DNA from: Clostridiales bacterium | GTDB lineage: Bacteria; Bacillota; Clostridia; Caldicoprobacterales; DTU083 | DNA length: 36,779 bases | NCBI GenBank assembly: GCA_012839095.1 | Contig: DUOA01000068.1 | Span: 1 to 36,779 of the forward strand | Direction of reading: 5' to 3' | Part shown: piece by piece, positions 5,291 to 24,435 of the stretch | How the letters are laid out: the number at the start of each line of letters is the position of its first letter | How positions within the stretch are numbered: position 1 is the stretch's first letter | The notes under the pieces: model-generated | The model's database searches: none | What the model was told of the DNA's origin: nothing | Seen by the model: only the letters and a program-made list of their open reading frames with translations | Position numbers and translations under genes: made by a program

Positions 5291-6610
5291 TTACTCCCAC
5301 TCTATAGTGGCTGGCGGCTTGCCTGTTATATCATATACCACCCTGTTTACGTGTTCTACCTCATTCACAATGCGGTTGGAAATTCTCTCCAGAACATCAT
5401 GTGGGATTCTTGCCCACTCTGCCGTCATGGCATCAATGCTGGTTACCGCCCTAAGGGCAATGGTATAGTCATAGGTTCTTTCATCACCCGAAACTCCAAC
5501 GCTTCGCATACCGGTCAGAACCGCAAAGTACTGCCATATTTCCCTGTCTAGCCCTGCTGTTGCTATCTCGTCCCGAAAGATCGCATCTGCTTCCCTCAGG
5601 ATTTTAAGCTTATCTTCTGTTACATCGCCTATTATGCGAATGGCAAGACCCGGGCCCGGAAAAGGCTGACGCCATACCAATTCTTCAGGGATACCCAGTT
5701 CCTCACCTGCCATTCGGACTTCGTCTTTGAACAGTTCCCGCAGGGGTTCTATAATCTCTCTGAAGTCCACATGCTCAGGCAGACCACCGACATTGTGATG
5801 TGACTTTATGACAGCTGCATCTCCCACACCGCTTTCAACCACATCGGCGTAAATGGTACCCTGAACCAGATAGTCCACCGAGCCTATCTTTCTTGCCTCT
5901 TCCTCAAAGACACGAATAAATTCCTCACCAATTATTTTTCTTTTTTCCTCAGGATCCGTAATGCCCCTCAAGCGGTTTAAAAAGCGTTCCTGAGCATTAA
6001 CCCTGATAAGATTCAGATTGAACAACTCTTTAAATGTCCGCTCAACCTGATCGCCTTCACCTTTGCGCAGCAGACCGTGATCCACAAAGATACAGGTCAG
6101 ATTACTGCCCACTGCCTTATGTACCAGCACTGCCGCTACCGAGCTGTCTACCCCGCCTGATAAGGCGCATAATACCTTTTTATCTCCGACACGCTCCTTA
6201 ATTGCCCTGACAGACCTGCGGACAAAGTTCCCCATGGTCCACTCAGCTGAACAGCCGCAGGTGTCAAACAAGAAACTTTCCAGAACCTGATCGCTGCATT
6301 CTGTATGTTCTCTTATGGTCACCTTGCTGCCATATTCAAGGCTAGTGGGCTGCGAATCATAGGAAATAATGAGAACAGGTACATCCATATCAAATATGTC
6401 CGGGCTGATCCTTGGTGCGCCTTCTTCTTTTTGAGCTGCAGGAGCTCCGACAAGGATGATTCCTGCCGGGTCTTTATCCCGGATACGTGCAATAGAAACG
6501 TTACAAGGAAGGATTTCGCTGTAAACTTTAGCCGCCCGCACCCTTCGGGCAATCTCCTGGCTGTATTGTCCGCCCGGGCTCAGAATCAGAATCGTTTCTT
6601 TCGGATTCAA
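5291..6610 (-). CDS. guaA: GMP synthase with degenerate, truncated glutaminase domain
   Basis: Converts XMP to GMP using ATP and an amide or ammonia nitrogen. The synthetase half looks complete: P-loop SGGVDSS (residues 151-157), the [11 protein letters not shown] and [10 protein letters not shown] segments, [16 protein letters not shown] in the dimerisation part, and the classic C-terminus PATIEWE. The glutaminase half is not normal. The GICYGMQ nucleophile motif reads IISYDSQ, with Ser83 in place of the catalytic Cys, and about 70-80 residues that should carry the catalytic His and Glu are missing before [14 protein letters not shown]. The protein is 439 residues against roughly 510 for the family. 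The frame is open, so this is not a simple frameshift. The start chosen is TTG at 6610 with AGGAGG 7 nt upstream; a TTG at 6628 lacks such a site. It lies 31 nt after guaB, in one operon. Confidence 0.93.
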
Positions 6611-13503: not shown

Positions 13504-14253
13504 ATGAAGAAGATCAGGACAATTGTTATTCTGGCAGCTGTAATGGCAGTCCTGTTGATACCGATGCAGGGAGCCATGGCAGCAGGCAATTATGTACTAT
13601 ACAACGGATACAGGGTTTACTACGGCTCAAATGCAGAGCAGTATACCCAGAATCGCGGAATTACTATACTATATAATTGGTTTTATAATGTAGTTGGAAC
13701 CCCTGCGCAGAAACCCGCTGCGACACCCAAGCCGGTTCCGACCCAGACTCCGGCGCCTGCTCCGACTCAGGCTCCTGCGCCGGCTCCGACCCCTGCTCCT
13801 ACTCCTGCTCCTACTCCTGCTCCTACCCCTGCTCCTACCCCTGCTCCTTCAGCTAATCCGGGACAATCCTCCGGATATCAGCTGAGTGCATCCGAACAGA
13901 AGATGGTTGACCTGGTAAACCAGGAACGGGCAAAGGCAGGCGTGGCCCCTCTTAAGGTGGATCTGGAACTGAGCCGGGTTGCCCGGATCAAGTCTCAGGA
14001 TATGAGGGACAACAACTACTTTTCACATACTTCACCTACCTACGGCAGCCCCTTTGAAATGATGAAAAGCTTTGGCATCAGCTACCGTACAGCAGGCGAA
14101 AACATTGCAAAACACAGCAGCGTGGAAAGTGCTCATACCGGACTTATGAATTCCGATGGTCACAGAAAAAACATCCTGAATCCCAACTTTACCCACATTG
14201 GCATCGGTATCGTTGATGGAAGGTATTACACTCAAATGTTTATCGGAAAATAA
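13504..14253 (+). CDS. Secreted CAP-domain (SCP/PR1, YkwD-type) protein with Pro-Ala-Thr linker
   Basis: 249 residues from ATG 13504 (GAGG upstream). Residues 1-26 are a signal peptide: MKKIRT, a hydrophobic core, then AMAA. A short tyrosine-rich segment follows, then a low-complexity linker at about residues 68-120 rich in PAPT repeats, and a C-terminal CAP domain from about residue 128. CAP marks are LVNQERAKAGVAPLKVD, the histidine in NNYFSHTSPTYGSPF, GENIA, and HRKNILNPNFTHIGIGI. Homologues are secreted or spore- and wall-associated in Clostridia and Bacillus; their biochemical role is unsettled. The linker is probably wall-spanning. A bidirectional terminator follows at 14312. Confidence 0.9.
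   Translation: MKKIRTIVILAAVMAVLLIPMQGAMAAGNYVLYNGYRVYYGSNAEQYTQNRGITILYNWFYNVVGTPAQKPAATPKPVPTQTPAPAPTQAPAPAPTPAPTPAPTPAPTPAPTPAPSANPGQSSGYQLSASEQKMVDLVNQERAKAGVAPLKVDLELSRVARIKSQDMRDNNYFSHTSPTYGSPFEMMKSFGISYRTAGENIAKHSSVESAHTGLMNSDGHRKNILNPNFTHIGIGIVDGRYYTQMFIGK
13768..13850 (+). repeat. Tandem 12-bp repeat coding the PAPT linker
   Basis: Near-perfect tandem copies of CCTGCTCCTACT/C, each coding Pro-Ala-Pro-Thr, with more divergent GCTCCGACT copies in front. Such repeats are prone to length change by slippage. The pattern is in-frame and part of the CAP protein, not a CRISPR. Confidence 0.8.
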
Positions 14254-16800: not shown

Positions 16801-17073
16801 TCAGATTGGAATACGGATGATTCTGGTTTCAGGACCTGCTCTCTCCACATGGTAGCAGCCAATGACCGGAATGCTGCACTGTCTGTATATTCTTAAAATC
16901 CTGCTTGTCATAAAAGGGGAAAACCGCAGTGACAGCCCGCAGCCCAGGGCAACCTCCCTGGGTGTGGACATTATCTGTGTCGGTATGCCGCGGTCGCTCA
17001 AAATCTTTTTGAAATGAAAGGCATGCTGTCTGGAACGAAACGACAGTATGTCAAAGACTTCCTGGCTGGGCAC
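16801..17073 (-). CDS. DUF3343 (putative Se/S carrier-like) protein
   Basis: About 90 residues. It matches the DUF3343 pattern: a first strand then RSRQHAFHFKKILSDRGIPTQIMSTPREVALGCGLSLRFSP, including the conserved PR-(x)n-GCGL(A/S)LRF. The family is small, often found beside YedF/TusA-like and cysteine desulfurase genes and suggested to carry sulfur or selenium on its cysteine. Here it is divergent from a cysteine desulfurase-family gene, which fits. The start is GTG at 17073 with GGGAG 8 nt upstream; the GTG at 17082 sits too close to that site. Confidence 0.82.
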   Translation of the reverse strand: MPSQEVFDILSFRSRQHAFHFKKILSDRGIPTQIMSTPREVALGCGLSLRFSPFMTSRILRIYRQCSIPVIGCYHVERAGPETRIIRIPI

Positions 17074-17161
17074 TGGTCTCACTCCCTGGTATTTTCAGTG
17101 TACCTTATCAATATATTTATCCGCCGGTATGTATGTTACAGCATAAAACAGGAGGGTTCAC

Positions 17162-18301
17162 ATGATCTATATGGATAATGCAGCGACCACCTGGCCCAAG
17201 CCTCAAAGGGTCATAAAAGCAGTCACCGGCTGCATGGAACGGTACGGAGCCAACCCAGGCAGATCCGGACATAAGATGTCTGTTCAGGCAGGCATGATTC
17301 TGCTCTATACGAGGGAAATGCTTTGCGAGCTGTTTAATATAAGGGATCCTTTTCAGTTTGTTTTTACCTGTAACTGCACCGACAGCCTGAATATGGCAAT
17401 CAAGGGAAGCGTTACGCCGGCTGATCATGTGATCACCAGCTCAATGGAGCATAATGCAGTGATCCGGCCGCTGAAGGAAATGGAAAAACAGGGACTTAAG
17501 CTAACGATTATAAAATGCAGCCCGGATGGAGACATAGATCCGGATGATATCAGAAAAGCTGTACAAACCAATACCCGTTTAATTGTCACTACTCACGCAT
17601 CCAATGTTACAGGCACCATACTGCCCATCGAAGAGATAGGCAGAATAGCAAGAAGCTTTGGTATCCCATATCTGGTGGATGCCGCACAGACTGCAGGAGT
17701 TCTGTCCATAGACCTGCACAGTCTGCCTGTTGATATGATGGCCTTTCCCGGACATAAAGGATTGATGGGACCGCAGGGCACGGGGGGATTGTATATTCAT
17801 CCCGACCTTGACCTGCCTTCTTTCCGGCAGGGCGGTACCGGGAGTCAGTCCGAAAGTCTGTATCAGCCTGACTTATTGCCTGACAAATATGAATCCGGTA
17901 CAATGAATACACCTGGTATTGCAGGCCTGGGTGCCGGAATACGGGAAATTCTCAGGGTAGAGCAATTAAAAATCCAGGCACATGAAAAAAGACTGGGAAA
18001 ACTGTTTCTGGAAGCTCTTTCTCACATCAAGGGAGTTAAAGTGTACGGGCCTTCCGACCTGTCCAGGCGGACAGGTATAATCTCCATTAATCTTGAAAAC
18101 AGGGATTCTGCGGAGGTTGCCAACCTTCTTGACGAAAGATATGATATAGCTGTCAGAGGAGGCCTGCATTGCTCTCCGCTTGCCCATGGGACCATAGGCA
18201 CTCTTAATCAGGGCACAGTACGCTTCAGCTATAGTATCTACAATCATCTTGATGAAGTTAAAAGCTGCATAAAAGCTATAGAGGAGATCAGCAGATGTTA
18301 G
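17162..18301 (+). CDS. Cysteine desulfurase family aminotransferase class V protein
   Basis: 379 residues. PLP-dependent enzyme that would release sulfur (or selenium) from cysteine or selenocysteine. Seen: N-terminal MIYMDNAATTWPKP, the PLP-pocket segment TSSMEHNAV, the aspartate in IPYLVDAAQT, the Schiff-base lysine in FPGHKGLMGPQG, and the catalytic cysteine loop RGGLHCSPLAH followed by VRFSYSIYN. The sequence is of the 'cysteine desulfurase family' (TIGR01977-like) type and not a housekeeping IscS. AGGAGGG lies upstream of ATG 17162. Its divergent neighbour is DUF3343, a common partner. The convergent PfkB-like gene ends 14 nt away, with no clear terminator between. Confidence 0.9.
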   Translation: MIYMDNAATTWPKPQRVIKAVTGCMERYGANPGRSGHKMSVQAGMILLYTREMLCELFNIRDPFQFVFTCNCTDSLNMAIKGSVTPADHVITSSMEHNAVIRPLKEMEKQGLKLTIIKCSPDGDIDPDDIRKAVQTNTRLIVTTHASNVTGTILPIEEIGRIARSFGIPYLVDAAQTAGVLSIDLHSLPVDMMAFPGHKGLMGPQGTGGLYIHPDLDLPSFRQGGTGSQSESLYQPDLLPDKYESGTMNTPGIAGLGAGIREILRVEQLKIQAHEKRLGKLFLEALSHIKGVKVYGPSDLSRRTGIISINLENRDSAEVANLLDERYDIAVRGGLHCSPLAHGTIGTLNQGTVRFSYSIYNHLDEVKSCIKAIEEISRC

Positions 18302-19336: not shown

Positions 19337-20593
19337 CTATTGTTTCAGATTCAAGCATTTGCGGATATCCAGAATGCCGCTTCCCTGCGCATACCTGCTT
19401 ACCTTGTTCATGTTGAATGCATTGCTCATCATGGTTTTTTTAATTTCTGCCGGTGTCATTTCCGGGTTTCTGCTTAAAAGCAGGGCTGCTGCACCTGCAA
19501 CAAGAGGTGTCGCCACAGAAGTTCCTGACATTTGAGTATAGGGTTCCTGCATAACTTCTGATCGTAAACCGCCTGTATATTCAGGATCGGTTTTTGCAGC
19601 CGTTATGCCCACACCAGGTGCCACCACATCGGGTTTAATCTGCCTGCCGTTAACAGGACCCCTGCTGGAAAAGCCGGCCATGTCATCATCTTCATACTGC
19701 GGTGTCCGTTTATCATCCACGGCACCTACGGTTAGAATCACAGGGCTGACTCCAGGGGTGGCAATCGTATTTTGTTTAGGGCCTGCATTGCCTGCTGCTG
19801 CAATTACAATGATACCTTTCTTCCAAACTGCCTCAACCGCCGCAAGAGGATCAAACCGGGATTTTTCCGATGGCTTTGCTCCCAGGGACAGGGACATAAT
19901 CCTGACATTAAGCTCCTTCTGATGGTCAACAACCCATTGTATGCCCGCTATGATATCGGATGAATTACCTGAGCCGTTGCGATCCATTACTTTAACCGCT
20001 ATCAGATCGGCCTCAGGCGCAATGCCCTTGTATTTGCCTCCGGATGCATAACCGTTTCCGGCTGCTACACTGGCAACAAAGGTTCCATGACCATTGTCAT
20101 CATAGGGATAATTTCTGTTATTGACAAAATCCTTAAAAGCCTTAATGCGATTCCTCGGTCTTGTAAAATCCTGGTGCGGATAAATGCCGGTATCCAGGAT
20201 AGCGATACCAATCCCTCTTCCTGTATATCCGGTATTATTTGCTATACTGGCCCCTACCTCCTGGGCGGCTACGTTTAAAAGCGTGGTCATCCTGACATCG
20301 TCGGAAATATATTCCACAACTTCCAGCCTGGCTGTATCCTCCAGCTTGCCGCCCTCTATTTCAACAGCATAAGCGTTGATCAGCGGCAGTTCATATTTTA
20401 TTTTCACACCTCGGCTCTCCAAATGGTTCCTGCACCTCTTAGTACCGTCTCCTTTTGTAAAAATTATGGCAGGTACTTTGCCTGAGCCAAGGGTTCTGGT
20501 CTTTTTAAGCAGTCTGCTGTCTATTTTCTCCTTTCCCCTGCTTTGATTATTGAACAGGAAAGGCAGCAAAAGTATCCCCGATAGTATTTTCAA
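19337..20593 (-). CDS. S8 family serine peptidase (subtilase)
   Basis: 418 residues from TTG 20593, preceded by GGAAGGGGGGAT; the further-upstream TTG at 20641 has no site. The start has a short hydrophobic stretch (KILSGILLLPFLF) that may act as a weak signal or anchor. An I9-like propeptide follows at about residues 38-105 (VPAIIFTKGDG... AYAVEIEGGKLEDT). The catalytic triad is present: Asp in IAILDTGIYPHQDF, His in DDNGHGTFVASVAAG, Ser in MSGTSVATPLVAGAAALLL, with the oxyanion Asn in IAAAGNAGP. It is a compact subtilase without C-terminal domains. It follows the 74-residue protein by 74 nt and is probably co-transcribed. Secreted or spore/wall-associated action is inferred. Confidence 0.93.
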   Translation of the reverse strand: MKILSGILLLPFLFNNQSRGKEKIDSRLLKKTRTLGSGKVPAIIFTKGDGTKRCRNHLESRGVKIKYELPLINAYAVEIEGGKLEDTARLEVVEYISDDVRMTTLLNVAAQEVGASIANNTGYTGRGIGIAILDTGIYPHQDFTRPRNRIKAFKDFVNNRNYPYDDNGHGTFVASVAAGNGYASGGKYKGIAPEADLIAVKVMDRNGSGNSSDIIAGIQWVVDHQKELNVRIMSLSLGAKPSEKSRFDPLAAVEAVWKKGIIVIAAAGNAGPKQNTIATPGVSPVILTVGAVDDKRTPQYEDDDMAGFSSRGPVNGRQIKPDVVAPGVGITAAKTDPEYTGGLRSEVMQEPYTQMSGTSVATPLVAGAAALLLSRNPEMTPAEIKKTMMSNAFNMNKVSRYAQGSGILDIRKCLNLKQ

Positions 20594-20667
20594 AGATATC
20601 CCCCCTTCCAATCTCGCCTTATATATCCTATGTATATACAAGGAGAGATGTTATTGGGGGAGGCAGA

Positions 20668-20892
20668 TTAATCCCAGAGTTCTTTTAACAGCTTGCTTAT
20701 TTTTTGTTTTTGCTCATTGGTCAGCATGGGCATAATCATCTGAAACATCTGCTCTGCTTTCTGAGGGGTCAGTCCCCCCTGTCCGGCTTTAATCATTTCC
20801 GCCAGCTCTCTGACCACCTGATCTTCAGATTTTCCCTCCATCTTTTTTGCTATTTGAGACATCCTTTTCATATCCTGGGTGCTGAACTCCAT
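20668..20892 (-). CDS. 74-residue hypothetical protein with one copy of a local repeat motif
   Basis: A small, Met- and Lys-rich, probably all-helical protein with a good ribosome site (AGGAGGGATGAT then ATG). I do not recognise a family. Residues 48-72 (EQMFQMIMPMLTNEQKQKIS...) match the motif repeated four times in the divergently transcribed 335-residue protein at 21063, around a conserved Pro-x-Leu-x2-Glu-Gln. It may be upstream in an operon with the subtilase. A regulator, substrate or partner of its neighbours is possible but unproven. Confidence 0.7.
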   Translation of the reverse strand: MEFSTQDMKRMSQIAKKMEGKSEDQVVRELAEMIKAGQGGLTPQKAEQMFQMIMPMLTNEQKQKISKLLKELWD

Positions 20893-21062
20893 ATCATCCC
20901 TCCTAAAAATGATCTTCCTTTACCATCCTATTCACTTCATCCGCAATTGACACAATACATCCAATATTTCAATGCACAACACTAACCATACGGCGTATTA
21001 TAGAGTAGGATGCGGCACCATACAGACAGTAACCGTTTTATATCATTGTTAGGAGGAGTGCA

Positions 21063-22070
21063 ATGATACAGAAAAGAAGCCATATGGCCTATAAAAGAAA
21101 AGAACCATGGAAGTTCATACCCAGGCGCGATCTGTTTCCTGATGCAGAGCCGCCTTACAACAGGGCAGCTTCTGCATCAACAGCCCCGGCTCCGTCAAAC
21201 AGGACAACTGTCCGGCAGGAAGCAAAGCCGGCGTATCCTGCAAGCGGCCGGCCATGGAAATCACCGCTGCCTGATCCCCGCCCCCTGAAACCTGTCAAAC
21301 CCGGGGGAAAGCCTCGCTCCATCCGGCCTGAATTCCTTCTGCTTTTGTTTGCCGGCGGAATCCTGCTGCGGCCCGGATTAAAGAAGCTGGAAGGCATATA
21401 TCATCCCCGGAGCATACAGATGCTTAAAACTCTGGGCCCCTATCTGCATGAGGCGGAGCAGGATATTGTTTATTCAGCAGCAGGTTTTATGGAAGCCTTA
21501 TACCTGATAAAGGATGTTATAAATCATACTTATCATAAGCGAAATCGGGCAGACTTGCTCCATGTGCCGTCCGATCCGGCAGCCAGGAAGGTGGAAGCAA
21601 TAAAGGCAATGAAGCCTTATCTCAGTCAGGACAGCAGAAAACGCATGGACCGGGCATTAAGTTTTTATGAAAACGCTGAAAGATTTCATAGAAACATTGC
21701 TCTTTACAGAAATAGCAGAACTCTGACAGGTGATCAGAAGGTAAATCCCTTCCAGTCCATAAGTGAAATGCTTAAGGTGATTCATCCAATTCTCCCTGAG
21801 GAGCAGAAAGAAAAAGCAGAGAAAACCATGCAGATAGTGAAAATAATTGATGCTGCGGGAACTGCGGAGCAATTGACCAGGAAAGATAAGAAGGAAAAAA
21901 AGAGACAGGCAGAAGAGACAGAGAAGGATGATCAGATACAAAAAATTATGGACTCCCTTACCCCAATGCTGAATGAGGAACAGAAGGAATCCATGGATGT
22001 GATTATGAAAATGGCTCAACTGCTGAGCCAACCGGAACAGTCGGAAAATATGGACTACGATGAGCAGTAA
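21063..22070 (+). CDS. 335-residue hypothetical protein: basic Pro-rich N-terminus, hydrophobic segment, four helical repeats
   Basis: Start ATG 21063 with AGGAGGAG upstream. Residues 1-88 are basic and proline-rich (many PRP, KPVKPGGKP). Residues 89-104 (PEFLLLLFAGGILLRP) form a short hydrophobic segment that could sit in a membrane. From 118 on the protein is helical and charged, with four copies of an 'h-x2-h-x-P-h-L-x2-E-Q' motif centred on prolines 126, 185, 242 and 301, a spacing of 57-59 residues. A very charged linker (RKDKKEKKRQAEETEKDDQ) separates copies 3 and 4. I do not recognise a named family. The divergent 74-residue protein carries one copy of the motif. A terminator overlaps the stop codon. 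Confidence 0.7.
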   Translation: MIQKRSHMAYKRKEPWKFIPRRDLFPDAEPPYNRAASASTAPAPSNRTTVRQEAKPAYPASGRPWKSPLPDPRPLKPVKPGGKPRSIRPEFLLLLFAGGILLRPGLKKLEGIYHPRSIQMLKTLGPYLHEAEQDIVYSAAGFMEALYLIKDVINHTYHKRNRADLLHVPSDPAARKVEAIKAMKPYLSQDSRKRMDRALSFYENAERFHRNIALYRNSRTLTGDQKVNPFQSISEMLKVIHPILPEEQKEKAEKTMQIVKIIDAAGTAEQLTRKDKKEKKRQAEETEKDDQIQKIMDSLTPMLNEEQKESMDVIMKMAQLLSQPEQSENMDYDEQ

Positions 22071-22704: not shown

Positions 22705-24435
22705 TTATCGTCCGGCAGCAACCGCTGTCAGTTTTACATCACCCTGCACTTCCTGATTTTGTATTTCCGTACCAATCCTCACTACCAGTACTGTAACGTC
22801 ATCAATCATTTTCTTGTCACCTCGAAGAGCATAATAGAGATCAAACATATGGTCTACAGTTTCAGCAGCTGTGATATTCTGTACTCCACGCAGATATTCC
22901 ACCAGATTGTCCGAATTGAAATGCTCCGGCATCTTCCGATCGATCTCTATAAGCCCGTCGGTGTAGAAAAGGAGGCTGTCCCCTTCCTCCAGCTGCACTG
23001 TTTGATTGTCATAGGAAGGACTTATAATTCCCCCCAGTTTGCATATGGGCACTCCTTTTATCTGAAGGGGTTCCACGTTTCCGCTTTTGTGCAGAATCAA
23101 GGGTTCTGTGTTCATTCCAGCCGAGCAATAGGTGAAAGTATTGTCCTTAAGATTGAAAATGCCGTAAAACATCACAGTGTAGATCTCTTCAGGGAAATTC
23201 ATTCTGTTATAAATATAAAAGAGATTTGTCAGAACCTGTTTGGGAGTGTGGATTCGGATGCGCCCGTCGTCAAACTCCCTCCTGACGTGAATGTTCTGAT
23301 TAATAAAAACGGTGATCATGGCAGCAGAAACACCGTGGCCTGCAACGTCGCCTATCAGGATGCCTATGTTGTCTTCATCCAGACGAAATACATTATAAAA
23401 GTCGCCCCCTATCTTTTCACAGGGCAGATATCTGGCTGCAAAATCCAGTTTCCCGGTTCTGGGAAAGGCTAAGGGAAGCAGGGCTGTCTGAATATTTCTT
23501 GCGTAGTCCATGTCTTTCAGCAGTTTTTCATTGGCAGCTTTAATTTCCATTGTTCTAGTATCAACCAGCTTTTCCAGGTTGTTTACATACCGGGCCAGCT
23601 GCTGTTCTGCTTCGTACATGGCCAGATAGGGTTTCTGCACGTTGAGCACGAACTTACCTTTAAATATCAGGGCATATGCAATTATCTTATATACATGGCC
23701 CAGCAGGTTGTAGGTATCATAAACATTATTGTACATTGTAAATGACAGCTCACTGAAAATGCTGAGGAGCAATGACAGAATAATAAATTTGTATTCTTCA
23801 GCCTCTTCGCCCTGACGGTAGATTCGGTAGAAGAGCAGCATATTTATGATCATTATGGCAATAATCGTATATTCCAGATAAATCTTCAGTGGAGTCAACC
23901 CTGAACCTTCTATGAACAAAGGCGGTATGTACTCCTGTTTGTACAGAATCAGGAAAGTAAGCAGCCCGCTGTATAGTAGTGAGACAAGAACAAAGACAGA
24001 GCGATGCAGTCTGACAGTACGATTCTTACTGACCAGGCCTGCTGCCATCATCCCAAGAACTGTTGTAAGCCTGGCGGCGATCCAGAATGAGGTTGCCTTG
24101 GAGATTGATGCATGTGAAAAAAAGCCCGGCATTCCGTCGTAAGTCAGTGTATGTATGGCATCCAGCAGCCCAACGATTAAGAAAGTGCACATAAATAAAA
24201 TGGTTCTTAGATTTTTAGTTCTGGCAACGGTGTAATAGGACAATAAAAATATGCAAAAGGACATGACAATGCTAAGACCCTCCAGGGCTATGTGCCAGTA
24301 CAGATAGTCATCCATGCGGAATATGTGGTAGATGTGGGAATCAAACCATTGAACCGTGCTGTATATGATTACCGACAGAAGAAACACTGCAAGAAAAACT
24401 GTACTGTCCTTTTTGATGCCCTTAACCCCCATCAT
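22705..24435 (-). CDS. MASE3-type membrane sensor with SpoIIE (PP2C-like) serine phosphatase
   Basis: 576 residues. The N-terminal half has about eight membrane helices with the MASE3 pattern (DAIHTLTYDGMPGFF and TSFWIAARLTTVLG). A coiled coil at about 290-325 follows (EAEQQLARYVNNLEKLVDTRTMEIKAANEKLL). The C-terminal phosphatase domain of the SpoIIE/RsbU group holds CEKIGGDFYNVF, GILIGDVAGHGVSAAM, YCSAGMNTEPLIL, LFYTDGLIE and DDVTVLVV, which include the metal-binding aspartates. It would dephosphorylate an anti-anti-sigma-type protein in response to a membrane signal. No such partner is beside it. ATG 24435 has GGAGG upstream and a promoter candidate at 24475. Confidence 0.9.
   Translation of the reverse strand: MMGVKGIKKDSTVFLAVFLLSVIIYSTVQWFDSHIYHIFRMDDYLYWHIALEGLSIVMSFCIFLLSYYTVARTKNLRTILFMCTFLIVGLLDAIHTLTYDGMPGFFSHASISKATSFWIAARLTTVLGMMAAGLVSKNRTVRLHRSVFVLVSLLYSGLLTFLILYKQEYIPPLFIEGSGLTPLKIYLEYTIIAIMIINMLLFYRIYRQGEEAEEYKFIILSLLLSIFSELSFTMYNNVYDTYNLLGHVYKIIAYALIFKGKFVLNVQKPYLAMYEAEQQLARYVNNLEKLVDTRTMEIKAANEKLLKDMDYARNIQTALLPLAFPRTGKLDFAARYLPCEKIGGDFYNVFRLDEDNIGILIGDVAGHGVSAAMITVFINQNIHVRREFDDGRIRIHTPKQVLTNLFYIYNRMNFPEEIYTVMFYGIFNLKDNTFTYCSAGMNTEPLILHKSGNVEPLQIKGVPICKLGGIISPSYDNQTVQLEEGDSLLFYTDGLIEIDRKMPEHFNSDNLVEYLRGVQNITAAETVDHMFDLYYALRGDKKMIDDVTVLVVRIGTEIQNQEVQGDVKLTAVAAGR

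Follow-up and report, generated by a model that had tools for sequence, protein, structure and literature searches.

Among the closest described counterparts of the locus analysed here are the AprX/Isp subtilases linked to sporulation, exemplified by C. difficile CD2000 (isp) and B. subtilis AprX. The protease CD2000 is controlled by sigma-E in C. difficile, while the dpaA gene of both C. difficile and B. subtilis is controlled by sigma-K, for which the published -10 element is CATATAAT (PMC3789822). The picture of sporulation gene sets is most complete for Bacillus and a handful of pathogens, and the literature that we searched reports no hairpin partner for Isp or AprX. Here, we describe a deeply conserved but unannotated gene pair of Clostridia, for which we provide a promoter prediction and a protease partner.

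The window, by which we mean the entire 36,779-base stretch of DNA analysed, is a single contig in a 2.7 Mb draft genome. It encodes two proteins, A and B, whose genes are transcribed divergently and are separated by 170 bp (Table 1). As the original prediction had it, they lie beside a subtilase. The gene of this protease immediately follows B on its strand, 27-60 bp away.

Table 1. Positions of the features discussed in the text, numbered from the first base of the window.
Feature	Position	Strand	Basis
Protein A, 335 aa	21063-22070	+	ORF with good Shine-Dalgarno site
Protein B, 74 aa	20668-20892	-	ORF with good Shine-Dalgarno site
AprX/Isp-like S8 subtilase	19337-20641	-	Pfam Peptidase_S8, 2.6e-58; alignment of 18 orthologues
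Hydrophobic segment of A, residues 89-104	21327-21374	+	Conserved at the same position in homologues of the order
Module 1 of A (Pro126)	21405-21521	+	Pro invariant in 28/28; hhalign modules 1-2, 7.5e-8
Module 2 of A (Pro185)	21567-21710	+	Pro in 21/28; hhalign modules 2-3, 5.8e-8
Module 3 of A (Pro242), nearest copy to B	21738-21878	+	Pro in 22/28; hhalign module 3-B, 2.4e-7
Module 4 of A (Pro301), degenerate	21921-22028	+	Pro in 10/28; hhalign module 4-B, 7.8e-5, modules 3-4, 2e-4
Predicted sigma-K-type promoter of A, AC-N16-CGTATTATA	20976-21002	+	Conserved in alignment of 12 f1 genomes
Conserved block upstream of B/subtilase, GTGTCA-N15-AATAGGAT	20925-20953	-	Conserved in alignments
Cysteine desulfurase with adjoining putative carrier	16801-18301		TIGR01977; PF11823
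MASE3-SpoIIE-type phosphatase	22705-24435		
Protein with YkwD domain	13504-14253		TIGR02909

A consists of a variable, proline-rich N-terminus, a short hydrophobic segment and four helix-Pro-helix hairpins. The original prediction had proposed four copies of one motif at near-constant spacing in A, and a single copy around Pro55 in B. All five prolines are located where it placed them. Profiles built on the homologues (28 for A, 29 for B) link module 1 to 2, 2 to 3 and 3 to 4, and B to all four modules (Table 1; B with module 2, 8.7e-7, and with module 1, 3e-5). Each of these E-values stems from a single hhalign comparison, and all lie above 40 column shuffles. Modules 1 and 3 are weakly related (0.003), and the module family alignments gave no hhalign support for pairing module 4 with modules 1 or 2. 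When whole profiles were compared, module 3 of A aligned with residues 37-72 of B (E 5.9e-5). Shuffles of the single sequences gave P<0.001 for module 3 against module 4 and against B, and P=0.002 for module 1 against 2, with the remaining module pairs weak or non-significant.

The distance between the prolines is 57-59 residues from copy 1 to 2 in all 28 homologues and 56-58 from copy 2 to 3 in 26 of them (46 in the other two). The interval between copies 3 and 4 ranges from 38 to 97, so that the third value of 59 in the window is a coincidence. Thus, regular spacing holds for the first two intervals and fails for the third, and copies 1-3 stand as proposed, whereas copy 4, with its weakly conserved proline, is not an equal module. 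For copies 1-3 and B, the repeat is significant on self-comparison and the prolines persist among the homologues. We conclude that A and B are, judged by their sequences, two members of one helical-hairpin family, which is indeed unnamed, as neither the proteins nor their alignments gave a credible match in Pfam, NCBIfam or PDB sequence searches.

Alphafold2 models of both proteins were calculated from alignments of four sequences. The model of A is of low confidence (mean pLDDT 49) and shows helical hairpins, in which a helix ends at every motif proline and the next helix begins on the E-Q side; the shared motif is therefore most plausibly a helix-Pro-helix hairpin. B is modelled with four helices (mean pLDDT 76). 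Its hairpin occupies the C-terminal half (residues ~43-73) and is preceded by two further predicted helices, meaning that B is longer than the single module it was first taken for. A Foldseek search with the B model returned no match in the PDB with an E-value below 1.

Residues 25-71 of B align with residues 73-119 of the ribosome recycling factor (RRF, PF01765) over 47 ungapped columns, which include P-M-L-T-x-E-(Q/R)-(K/R). For the window protein the Pfam E-value is 3.4e-5 at 24.2 bits, below the family cut-off of 29.7 bits, and hhalign gives 1.2e-6. With 74 residues, B also falls short of the full two-domain length of RRF. Matches to RRF occur in 12 of the 29 B proteins of the order and are absent from the six distant relatives tested. 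The aligned segment of RRF includes beta strand, whereas B is predicted to be helical. On these grounds we set homology with RRF aside, and the resemblance probably reflects convergence.

The variable N-terminus of A is followed, ahead of the repeats, by the hydrophobic segment of ~15 residues that had been suspected of linking A to the membrane. The segment is real and conserved, and probably serves as a single-pass membrane anchor. In family f1, to which the window belongs, the N-terminus of A additionally contains a conserved FIPRRDLFPDA box. Just upstream of A, two other families (f2 and f141) harbour tiny, highly hydrophobic ORFs of 48, 61 and 35 aa with ribosome-binding sites (L068:8380-8526, L069:8541-8687, L076:9193-9339; L251:4862-5047, 5414-5521), which have no Pfam or NCBIfam match.

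A whole-genome search found A and B as single-copy, adjacent and divergent genes in 28 genomes of the order. Profile searches reaching other orders revealed related pairs in at least six other families. The two genes are divergent in G036, G100, G127, G047, G232, G270 and G164, lie within ~3 kb of each other in G064, and share a strand in G083, G050, G109 and G136. At two loci (L128 and L132), the A and B profiles cross-match. In family f25, the genes of the subtilase and B are separated by that of an extra short protein, which has one hairpin and a hydrophobic C-terminal end and looks like a piece of a divided A. Outside the class, a strong match to A was found in one family, f141, again beside a subtilase; B was not recognised near these two genes.

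The subtilase adjoins A and/or B in families f22, f39, f25, f33, f40 and f8. Its catalytic motifs are intact in the alignment of 18 orthologues (Asp DTG, His NGHGT, Ser GTS). The N-terminus is propeptide-like; it has a short hydrophobic stretch in f1, which is minimal or absent in several other families. An internal TTG near 20592-20611 is the more likely true start. In one genome of family f4 (G015), the orthologue is split into two same-strand halves 45.5 kb apart (L071:10274-10786 and L239:11297-12043; G015 C1:125273-172042). The 14-bp sequence CATGGTACCTTTGT is directly repeated at the two junctions, inside the catalytic-His motif. The insert encodes ParA, ParB and a relaxase, as well as a 533-aa large serine recombinase near its right end. 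This arrangement recalls the elements that interrupt genes in other spore formers (sigK/skin, spsM, gerE gin and yabG yin), but differs from them in that, from its gene content, the insert looks like an integrative conjugative element.

Other genes flank the locus. The cysteine desulfurase (itself also close to the selenocysteine lyase SclA) and the adjoining putative Se/S carrier form a neighbour pair that is kept in the order. A membrane sensor of MASE3 type fused to a SpoIIE-type phosphatase is likewise kept near A in the order, and in f25 its gene and that of A are immediate neighbours. A protein with a spore-associated YkwD domain is encoded a few genes off.

Upstream of A, a block of the form AC-N16-C[A/G]TANNNT can be aligned across the four families that make up the order. 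Outside f1 it reads AC-N16-CATATTATG or CATAATATG in f2 and f3, families f2-f4 together giving CATATTATG, CATAATATG and CATATATTA, and AC-N16-CATATATT(A/G) in most of f4. This layout is of the sigma-K type, for which a -35 AC and a -10 CATANNNT(A), 16-17 bp apart, are expected. The exact -10 CATANNNT is found in f2, f3, f4, f11, f74 and part of f25, and the CGTA of f1, the window included, is one mismatch away from CATA. The strict pattern is located 54 to 61 bp before A in f11 (3/3), f74 and two f25 genomes; no sigma-K match was found upstream of A in f22, f39, f70, f33 and f40. Altogether, the strict pattern precedes A in 6 of 14 families (P 0.0015), against a background in which it occurs anywhere within 250 bp in 10% of 359 upstream regions.

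Genes of known regulation served as controls within the same genomes. The element of dpaA is GCAC-N17-CATA(T/C)NAT in f1, f2 and f4, spoIVA has a sigma-E element of the GTCATATT type, and the SASP genes have a third kind. A candidate sigma-E promoter for A, ATA-N16-CATACAGA, situated further downstream, is missing in L008, L010 and L011 and was dropped because it is the AC-N16-C[A/G]TA block that aligns in all four families. The SASP control lent no support to sigma-G for either A or B. The block preceding B and the subtilase reads GTGTCA/GTATCA-N15/16-AATANNAT across the order. It lacks the sigma-K combination of -35 AC and -10 CATANNNT and is not of the sigma-E type either, so that A and the B/protease unit may differ in timing; the block could be assigned to no sporulation sigma factor.

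The order is spore-forming, as SASP genes are present in all 28 genomes tested. Across the class, where 208 of 291 genomes have spoIVA, the gene occurs in 40 of 42 A-positive and 168 of 249 A-negative genomes (Fisher 4.6e-5), and outside the order in 27 of 28 A-positive genomes (Fisher 4.2e-4); in both cases related genomes are not independent and the P-values are optimistic. In family f40, the A/subtilase locus is found ~5-6 kb from spoIVA (L145 = G065 C1:1980000-1992000; G092 C78). A possible lead to SpoVIF had no supporting Pfam match. Literature on AprX, subtilases or Isp together with sporulation yielded no description of the A/B pair. Based on promoter type and genome distribution, the pair is probably an unnamed part of the spore-building machinery. 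This link to sporulation, seen in the promoter type of A and the spoIVA distribution, and the long-range conservation of the A/B/subtilase neighbourhood extend the original prediction.

The model that we tentatively favour sees A and B as an unnamed pair of hairpin proteins among the accessory sporulation genes of Clostridia. Expressed from its sigma-K-type promoter, A would appear late in the mother cell, where its single short hydrophobic segment would tether it to a membrane and its three or four hairpins would serve for docking or as a scaffold. The small, soluble, four-helix protein B would be made together with the subtilase from their own promoter. Because B has the hairpin of A and is co-directional with the protease, it is a natural candidate for the link between the two, and its hairpin would most likely pack against the hairpins of A and/or the protease. 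B may act as a recruiter, a restrainer or a substrate. Through such packing, the protease would be positioned or restrained at the membrane of A, where it could process spore-envelope proteins or contribute to end-stage proteolysis in the mother cell.

Other readings of the locus have to be weighed against this model. A and B might be proteins of the spore envelope or the outer forespore membrane without any functional tie to the subtilase, with the neighbourhood simply reflecting inherited gene order. We consider this possible, albeit less likely than the favoured model. In family f3 the subtilase orthologue (52-54% identity) has moved away from A and B, and a search at E<=1e-20 detected no subtilase in G270, G036 and G073, which retain both A and B; moreover, the cysteine desulfurase and the MASE3-SpoIIE phosphatase are conserved alongside the pair as well. 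Against it, the subtilase is the neighbour that recurs in distant families as well as in another class, and B directly precedes it in the order and in f22, f39, f33 and f8. The close, same-strand arrangement of B and the subtilase would also suit a general control of post-exponential proteolysis, not specific to sporulation, in which B would inhibit or chaperone the intracellular subtilase and A would be a membrane-bound target or anti-protease reservoir. In line with this, G064 encodes a free-standing 89-aa homologue of the propeptide-like N-terminus beside A (L129:6357-6626), by its sequence a possible trans-acting protease inhibitor or chaperone. We nevertheless deem such a role improbable, given the co-occurrence with spoIVA, the sigma-K-type element of A and the presence of B without an adjacent subtilase in L139-L141.

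Finally, the motif itself could have arisen by convergence, if helical proteins of separate origin each use P-h-L-T/N-x-E-Q as a generic helix N-cap. The likeness of B to RRF despite probably different folds illustrates how this might happen, and module 4 has no link to modules 1 and 2. However, the profile scores among modules and between modules and B are far above those of column shuffles, modules 1-3 keep a near-fixed spacing in all homologues, and the two profiles cross-match in L128 and L132. Convergence is accordingly the least probable of these explanations, and a very unlikely one.

The most far-reaching form of the favoured hairpin-pair model is that A, as a membrane-anchored repeat protein, and B, as its single-hairpin partner, constitute an undescribed adaptor system, widespread in Clostridia, that brings an intracellular subtilase to a membrane of the sporulating mother cell at a time set by sigma-K. 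We regard this as unlikely on present data. If true, it would amount to a mechanism of spatial control for intracellular subtilases, whose contribution to spore formation is ill-defined.

The family formed by A and B is new to annotation, while an accessory sporulation protein with helical repeats is of a kind already known. Similar to HEAT and TPR-like repeats, A is built from tandem helix-turn-helix hairpins, with one proline per module and a plausible protein-binding surface. It differs from them in the linkers between its hairpins, its period of ~57-59 residues and its three or four copies, and no named helical repeat family in Pfam or NCBIfam scored above the cut-off. With the sigma-K regulon (dpaA/dpaB and cot genes), A shares its promoter type, as dpaA has AC-N16/17-CATANNNT in the same genomes; A and B have no sequence relation to named coat or envelope proteins in Pfam, NCBIfam or the PDB. 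The AprX/Isp systems offer a further parallel. There, as here, the protease is an S8-type subtilase of spore formers, and that of the window may likewise lack a classical signal peptide; what sets this locus apart is that A and B are not proteases themselves.
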